64,000 nt of DNA. Source: an uncultured Lachnospiraceae bacterium. Its GTDB lineage: Bacteria; Bacillota; Clostridia; Lachnospirales; Lachnospiraceae. Position numbers and translations under genes: made by a program. Positions 38,887-39,279 of the stretch are shown here, one piece after another (the first letter of the stretch is position 1; each line of letters begins with the position of its first letter). Under the pieces are notes generated by a model. The model had not been told where the DNA came from. It saw only the letters and a program-made list of their open reading frames with translations, and searched no databases. Location: contig CALWQT010000010.1 in NCBI GenBank assembly GCA_944383765.1, forward strand, positions 1-64,000. Reading direction: 5' to 3'.

Positions 38887-38915
38887 TTGACAAAATAATA
38901 GGGCTAAGCTATAAT
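38887..38915 (+). promoter_or_regulatory. perfect consensus promoter of the candidate ncRNA
   Basis: TTGACA (38887-38892), 17 bases, TATAAT (38910-38915), preceded by A-tracts. Start expected near 38922. Confidence 0.8.
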
Positions 38916-38921
38916 AAAGAC

Positions 38922-39279
38922 AACAAAAAGAGATAAGAAAATCTTAACATCCCAAAGAGGAAAACAAGAATATCTTAAAATCTCAGAAAAGGAGGTACGG
39001 TCCAAAGGGCTAAGAAGAGAATCCCCAGGAATATTCAAGAATCATTCCGGAAGTCAATTTTTTAAAAGGTTCAGTTTCATGGACAGGTTAAGAGAATAGA
39101 TGGAATTCGTTAAGAATGAAGTGAATGAGGAAGAATAATATATAGATTACTGATAATAGGGGGTTTTATCAGGGCGAATGAAAGTTTCGCAATATAGAAA
39201 AAGAGGTATAATCCAATGGAGACAATGAGTTAGGAACGGGTACTGATGAAGTAAGATCGGTATCCGTTCCTATTTTTTT
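38922..39279 (+). ncRNA. candidate noncoding RNA, about 358 nt, unassigned
   Basis: The transcript predicted from the consensus promoter ends at a strong terminator (39232-39279) and contains no long reading frame. It shows a 17-base near-repeat (38935-38951 and 38966-38982, two mismatches, 31-base period), an SD-like AAAAGGAGGT with no start codon after it (38987-38996), a bulged hairpin CC-A-GGAAT/ATTCCGG (39025-39050), CTGATAA/TTATCAG (39150-39172) and GCGAA/TTCGC (39175-39190, approximate). It is not tmRNA, RNase P, SRP RNA, a T-box or S-box, whose signature motifs I looked for and did not find. I do not recognise 6S, OLE, ROOL or raiA features, but cannot exclude them by eye. Two short frames inside (39100-39138 and 39178-39228) are possible small peptides. 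Confidence 0.6.
39232..39279 (+). terminator. terminator of the candidate ncRNA
   Basis: AGGAACGGGTAC (39232-39243) pairs with GTATCCGTTCCT (39260-39271) with one G-T pair, then a run of seven T. Confidence 0.9.

Follow-up and report, generated by a model that had tools for sequence, protein, structure and literature searches.

Organisation of the locus

The window analysed here is a stretch of 64,000 nucleotides from an uncultured Lachnospiraceae bacterium, in which genes for a MATE pump (PF01554) and an asparaginase (PF00710/PF17763), the latter followed by a gene for a ThrE-type exporter (PF06738), flank what appears to be a separate transcription unit (Table 1). An earlier note on this DNA had described the unit as an orphan noncoding transcript with a consensus promoter and a strong terminator, lying between these two genes, and domain searches confirmed both neighbours. 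The promoter is the sole full match within 3.5 kb in a sigma-70-type scan, and the terminator stem (39231-39272) has 17 pairs in our scan and is followed by seven T residues. An ORF search found no reading frame of ordinary size on the + strand of the RNA body, again as the note had it. The predicted fold is more stable than those of 100 shuffled sequences (z -4.7), a figure to which the terminator contributes part.

Table 1. Features of the transcription unit, in window coordinates
Feature	Position	Strand	Basis
Promoter: TTGACA (38887-38892), 17 nt, TATAAT (38910-38915)	38887..38915	+	12/12 score
RNA of ~358 nt, from the inferred transcription start (~38922)	38922..39279	+	Promoter, terminator and fold; kept in relatives
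Unit 1, start-less ribosome-binding site	38980..39017	+	Match to model R1 (E 3.4e-8); unit consensus
Hairpin CTGATAA/TTATCAG with G-rich loop	39150..39172	+	Conserved in the genus
Hairpin GCGAA-[TGAAAGT]-TTCGC	39174..39190	+	Counterpart in G005
Shine-Dalgarno AAAGAGGT of the mini-ORF	39200..39207	+	Sequence and family mini-ORF scan
Mini-ORF ATG GAG ACA ATG AGT TAG (METMS*)	39216..39233	+	Relatives; family-wide coding signature
Intrinsic terminator, beginning with the stop codon of the mini-ORF	39231..39279	+	Terminator scan

The key to reading this RNA is a 17-base near-repeat, which the earlier note had also picked out. Its two copies, GAGGTACGGTCCAAAGG (38992-39008) and GAGGTATAATCCAATGG (39203-39219), are identical at 13 of 17 positions, an identity read directly off the sequence as it falls under the sensitivity of the automated repeat search. 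We regard the repeat as being beyond chance because the layout of promoter, unit and terminator recurs in relatives with 78-82% identity and throughout the family. The first copy resembles a strong ribosome-binding site in which the position of the start codon reads AAG. It belongs to a unit (unit 1) made up of AAAGGAGGT (38988-38996), UCC/A (39001-39004), the AAG triplet (39005-39007) and, in the same frame as AAG, GGC TAA (39008-39013). The second copy, located just 5' of the terminator, has ATG in place of AAG and opens a five-codon ORF encoding METMS, for which the relatives of the window RNA have MDTMS, MDTMF, MDTMI, MDTMH, MDTIF or MDTML.

Two hairpins lie between these copies. In the first (39150-39172), a relative from the same genus (G005) and Enterocloster bolteae (L076) shift the sequence and register of the stem with pairing retained, as judged by eye from the alignment. 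The counterpart of the second (39174-39190) in G005, also compared by eye, is ACAGT-[TGAAAGG]-ACTGT, in which four of the five pairs are changed on both sides and the loop is nearly the same.

Distribution of related RNAs

The description of this RNA as an orphan proved to be wrong, since the RNA belongs to a class that spans the family and has a paralog in the same genome. Conservation in related genomes was evident both from DNA searches and from a sequence model of the unit. A DNA search matched the RNA body in six congeneric genomes: identity was 78-82% in five, and a partial match at 75% was obtained in G005. The RNAs of the five closer congeners (L029 to L033) carry an extra, well-conserved 5' domain of ~200 nt, CAAGGGGCGTATCCC ... 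CCTGAAGCGGAACATCTCAAAAAA, which is absent from those of the window and G005. Weaker DNA matches in other genera converge on a single shared element, AAGGAGGUACRGWCCA. A scan of named genomes for this element found it in many Lachnospiraceae, mostly with a near-consensus promoter upstream, including Anaerobutyricum hallii, Anaerostipes, Enterocloster, Butyrivibrio, Mediterraneibacter, Sporofaciens and Agathobacter; the scan also gave unrelated chance matches in other phyla, without a promoter.

Genome tallies based on a strict pattern were too insensitive and have been superseded by R1, a 44-nt sequence model of the unit. At a threshold of E <= 0.01 per genome, for which about three chance matches are expected, R1 matched 165 of 298 Lachnospiraceae genomes, representing 157 of 280 genera. 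In a draw from the whole class, matches were found in 16 of 196 genomes, five of which are Lachnospiraceae and most of the others weak. The paralog in the window genome (L023; G000:C2:56958 onward) adjoins a convergent radical SAM gene, and a further, low-scoring R1 match there (G000:C27, E 0.0067) has by eye no layout of promoter and terminator. At L136 a single contig bears the RNA twice on one strand, the copies being separated by ~850 nt.

We found no indication that the RNA is spread by mobile elements. Viral contigs carry the motif outside the RNA layout, the better matches being mostly ribosome-binding sites of long ORFs, and the RNA is absent from all 80 viral contigs in which the motif was found, so that spread by phages can be rejected; spread by plasmids was rejected as no plasmid match was obtained.

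Comparison with known RNA classes

No match at the gathering level of Rfam 15 was obtained for the window RNA or for any RNA of nine related loci, and scans at permissive settings, covering the window region and ten diverse loci, gave sub-threshold chance matches only. This bears out the absence of tmRNA, RNase P and SRP RNA noted earlier. Of the known classes that had been offered as possible identities, 6S is rejected, as the window RNA does not match RF00013 and the 6S RNA of this genome is located elsewhere (G000:C14:29946-30122, 64.5 bits); raiA, OLE and ROOL, together with GOLLD and the other Rfam classes, are likewise rejected for lack of a model match. The sole gathering-level match in the window is a SAM riboswitch (S-box, RF00162; 53946-54081, + strand, 61.7 bits). 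What is supported is a stand-alone transcription unit that has no counterpart in Rfam 15. In the open-access literature that we could search no prior description was found, and one may exist among preprints or subscription papers.

In common with raiA/ModT, ROOL, OLE and GOLLD, the RNA is a stand-alone, conserved Firmicutes RNA outside the usual classes, but it does not match their Rfam models and consists of short conserved parts in a modular arrangement rather than one large ornate fold. The TwoAYGGAY and Clostridiales-1 motifs are also RNAs of gut bacteria and Clostridiales (Weinberg 2010, PMC2864571), and AYGGAY is present once here, as the mini-ORF start AUGGAY; in contrast to those motifs, no locus scanned here has an Rfam match.

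Anatomy of the family

We assembled 168 distinct RNAs from all loci, with a median length of 392 nt. A promoter scoring at least 11/12 is present in 81% of these and one scoring 12/12 in 48%, figures biased upward by the entry requirement of an upstream promoter scoring at least 9/12; the other strand of these stretches gives 1.3% and 0%. By model score each RNA contains one to nine units, with approximately nine in tandem in A. hallii (L089), and the distance between the inferred start and the first unit has a median of 68 nt. The terminator stems of many members share a GGRUAUCGAU / AUCGGUAUCC-like sequence exceeding what termination requires. There is no conserved neighbour, and the downstream gene is co-directional in 70 and opposite in 45 of 115 cases. 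Five loci (L064, L093, L098, L240 and L268) have upstream neighbours that belong to one cluster and point away from the RNAs. This cluster was identified in L064 as the asparagine synthetase AsnA (PF03590), and the mini-ORFs of the RNAs beside it are mostly of the MIEIS type. As the window copy adjoins an asparaginase gene, there is possibly a real link to asparagine, or possibly a coincidence.

In 166 start-less units the triplet that follows CCN is CCA, CCG, AAG, ACA, AAA or CCT, rarely ATC or TCA, in place of NTG. In 129 of these units the replaced start shares its frame with the first stop triplet, mostly UAA at +9, compared with 12 and 22 units for the two other frames; a fixed UAAG motif could partly account for this excess. 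In a minority of the internal units NTG is present, giving ORFs of two or three codons (MGT*, MYS*, MYN*). Homologous units may differ in having AAG or ATG, as in L086 and L115, or in unit 1 and the 3' copy of the window RNA. The mean energy of pairing with the anti-SD (Shine-Dalgarno) sequence is -12.7 kcal/mol for internal units, whose SD core is partly guaranteed by a motif search that favoured GGAGG, compared with -11.0 for mini-ORF leaders, -8.2 for ordinary ORFs and -4.6 for random positions of the RNAs. In viral genes, the ATG form of the motif serves as a normal ribosome-binding site.

The units take two forms, with a strong association between their parts: ACC is followed by CC in 90 of 113 cases and UCC by another sequence in 87 of 102. 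In the ACC type, which makes up about half, folding suggests that GGAGGU could pair with ACCACC and so hide the SD, GGA then lying in the 5' arm of a weak hairpin and outside its loop. Pairing between units had been suggested by the predicted fold of L154, the smallest member, and by the palindromic appearance of the motif. A conserved long-range helix joining unit 1 to the 3' unit was rejected, given that matched and mismatched combinations gave -9.5 and -9.7 kcal/mol respectively (permutation p 0.84).

An exact UGACGAGAAAG loop on a covarying stem occurs in 49 of the 168 RNAs, including the paralog L023; the window copy is without it. The three inner pairs of this stem are never broken and both sides are changed in 50 of 174 cells, giving a covariation of 0.856 compared with 0.229 for shuffled sequences and at most 0.231 for slid controls. 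The invariance of the loop follows from the exact search, but the covariation of the stem does not. A hammerhead-like reading of UGACGAGAAAG was rejected since its flanks pair together as a plain hairpin. Conservation of the UCC/ACC element and of the UGACGAGAAAG loop, which SD-anti-SD pairing leaves unexplained, may point to a protein or other partner.

A conserved mini-ORF at the 3' end

The window RNA was originally taken to be noncoding, but its 3' end carries a conserved mini-ORF with the signature expected of translated sequence. An SD-led ORF, mostly of 5-10 codons and ending at the terminator, is present in 121 of the 137 RNAs in which a terminator was detected, and contact of the stop codon with the terminator stem is the rule across the family. 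When the SD was required to span at least 5 nt and the stop to fall between -6 and +3 relative to the stem, 106 of 137 RNAs qualified. Dinucleotide-shuffled sequences yielded 4.2 such cases (maximum 7), and of 260 other terminators on these contigs 4 had such an ORF. The sequence NTGGA was in the training set of R1; however, 46 of the 121 mini-ORFs lack this motif (40 of which keep the tight contact between stop and stem) and in only 28 of the 121 was the SD of the mini-ORF itself scored as a unit, and therefore the circularity is limited. Start codons are ATG (81), TTG (35) and GTG (5), and stop codons TAA (55), TAG (41) and TGA (25).

Comparison of close pairs of mini-ORFs gave differences at codon positions 1, 2 and 3 in the ratio 104:122:270, and 292 nonsynonymous changes where 372 were expected; the pairs share ancestry and the counts are thus not independent, but the direction is plain. 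The excess at the third position is a mark of translation. Within the MD[ES]IV, KL and MIE groups of peptides, residues are retained via synonymous codons, for example TTA, CTT and CTA for leucine and ATA, ATC and ATT for isoleucine. On these comparative grounds, translation of the mini-ORF and the reality of the RNA class are strongly supported.

Dual-function small RNAs of the SgrS, RNAIII and SR1 types are stand-alone regulatory RNAs that also encode a peptide. The present RNAs are similar in having a conserved ORF with a putative translation signature, but differ in that the peptide has only 5-10 residues and lies at the extreme 3' end, and in their repeated start-less ribosome-binding sites. 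Minigenes and leader mini-ORFs (lambda bar type, txe leader) also consist of a few codons behind a strong SD, and occupancy of the SD alone can stabilise an RNA (reviewed in PMC8708949). These act in cis on a downstream gene, whereas here only the terminator follows.

Alternative explanations

The position of the mini-ORF stop codon inside the terminator stem, and of the asparaginase gene next on the same strand, would suit a leader or attenuator in which translation of the mini-ORF controls the terminator and hence the downstream gene. We reject an asparaginase attenuator given the orientation and diversity of neighbours across loci described above, to which may be added that the paralog in the window genome ends against a convergent gene, and consider attenuation in general highly improbable. 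It is also very unlikely that a known class has been missed by the Rfam thresholds: the variable length and short motifs of these RNAs are hard for covariance models, but neither the gathering-level nor the permissive scans gave anything beyond chance matches, and 6S is encoded elsewhere.

Codon-level conservation of the MD[ES]IV, [MV]KL[LQ]xIH and MIExS groups, and the net acidic character of 72 of 96 distinct peptides, are consistent with a minimal mRNA whose product is a mostly acidic formyl-methionyl peptide of 5-10 residues, serving as an intracellular or released signal, with the units protecting or regulating the message. This seems unlikely, though a serious candidate, as the peptides vary widely among groups, their last residue is free in the genus of the window, and they have neither an export signal nor a conserved neighbouring receptor or exporter gene. 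Similarly doubtful is an RNA sponge, in which the units and the UGACGAGAAAG loop would bind either C-rich small RNAs with CCUCC loops or some protein that is not CsrA. Tandem short motifs in variable copy number, an invariant loop on a covarying stem and the hairpin-forming ACC units all favour such a role, and CsrB/RsmZ sponges are likewise stand-alone, strongly terminated RNAs with repeated GGA-containing motifs. However, CsrA (PF02599), the known owner of such sponges, was not found by domain search in the window genome or the eight congeners searched (G000-G008), nor in G027, G029, G033 and G035, so that a CsrA sponge is rejected, and a coding mini-ORF abutting the terminator, which CsrB/RsmZ do not have, is not needed by a sponge.

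Ribosome capture as a possible function

Our preferred reading, to which we assign a probability of about one half from sequence comparison, is that these strongly promoted, stand-alone RNAs form an undescribed class found across the Lachnospiraceae and engage ribosomes. The class probably works by catching ribosomes. Points against this reading are the possible hiding of the SD in ACC-type units, the SD core that the motif search partly guaranteed, the conserved UCC/ACC element and UGACGAGAAAG loop that SD pairing does not account for, and the lack of the loop hairpin in the window copy. The closest precedent is STAB-SD in the cry3A leader of Bacillus thuringiensis, which binds the 30S subunit without initiating and blocks RNase J1 (PMC4113751). 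Here too a strong SD without a start codon lies near the 5' end, and 30S binding and stabilisation may be expected by analogy. STAB-SD differs in being a single site within the 5' UTR of an mRNA for a protein, while up to nine sites occur here in a stand-alone RNA with no long ORF. By this analogy, the start-less units would bind 30S subunits through the anti-SD sequence without initiation, and the RNA would thereby hold ribosomes and escape 5'-3' exonuclease decay. The terminal mini-ORF would be translated up to the terminator, and the function of the RNA would be capture of ribosomes, as a buffer or decoy for small subunits, with the peptide secondary. More tentatively, and with rather more doubt than confidence, we suggest a dedicated ribosome-capture RNA in which tandem start-less sites accompany one productive five-codon gene and the capacity for small subunits is set by the number of units, providing a tunable buffer or brake unlike known RNAs.

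The Lachnospiraceae are among the most abundant bacteria of the human gut, and this RNA is present in over half of the sampled genera of the family yet has no Rfam entry. The class offers hundreds of conserved ORFs of 5-10 codons, which fall under the size cut-off of gene finders. If ribosome capture is true, it would represent a new form of translation control, in which ribosome-binding sites are the working part of an RNA and not the entry to a gene.
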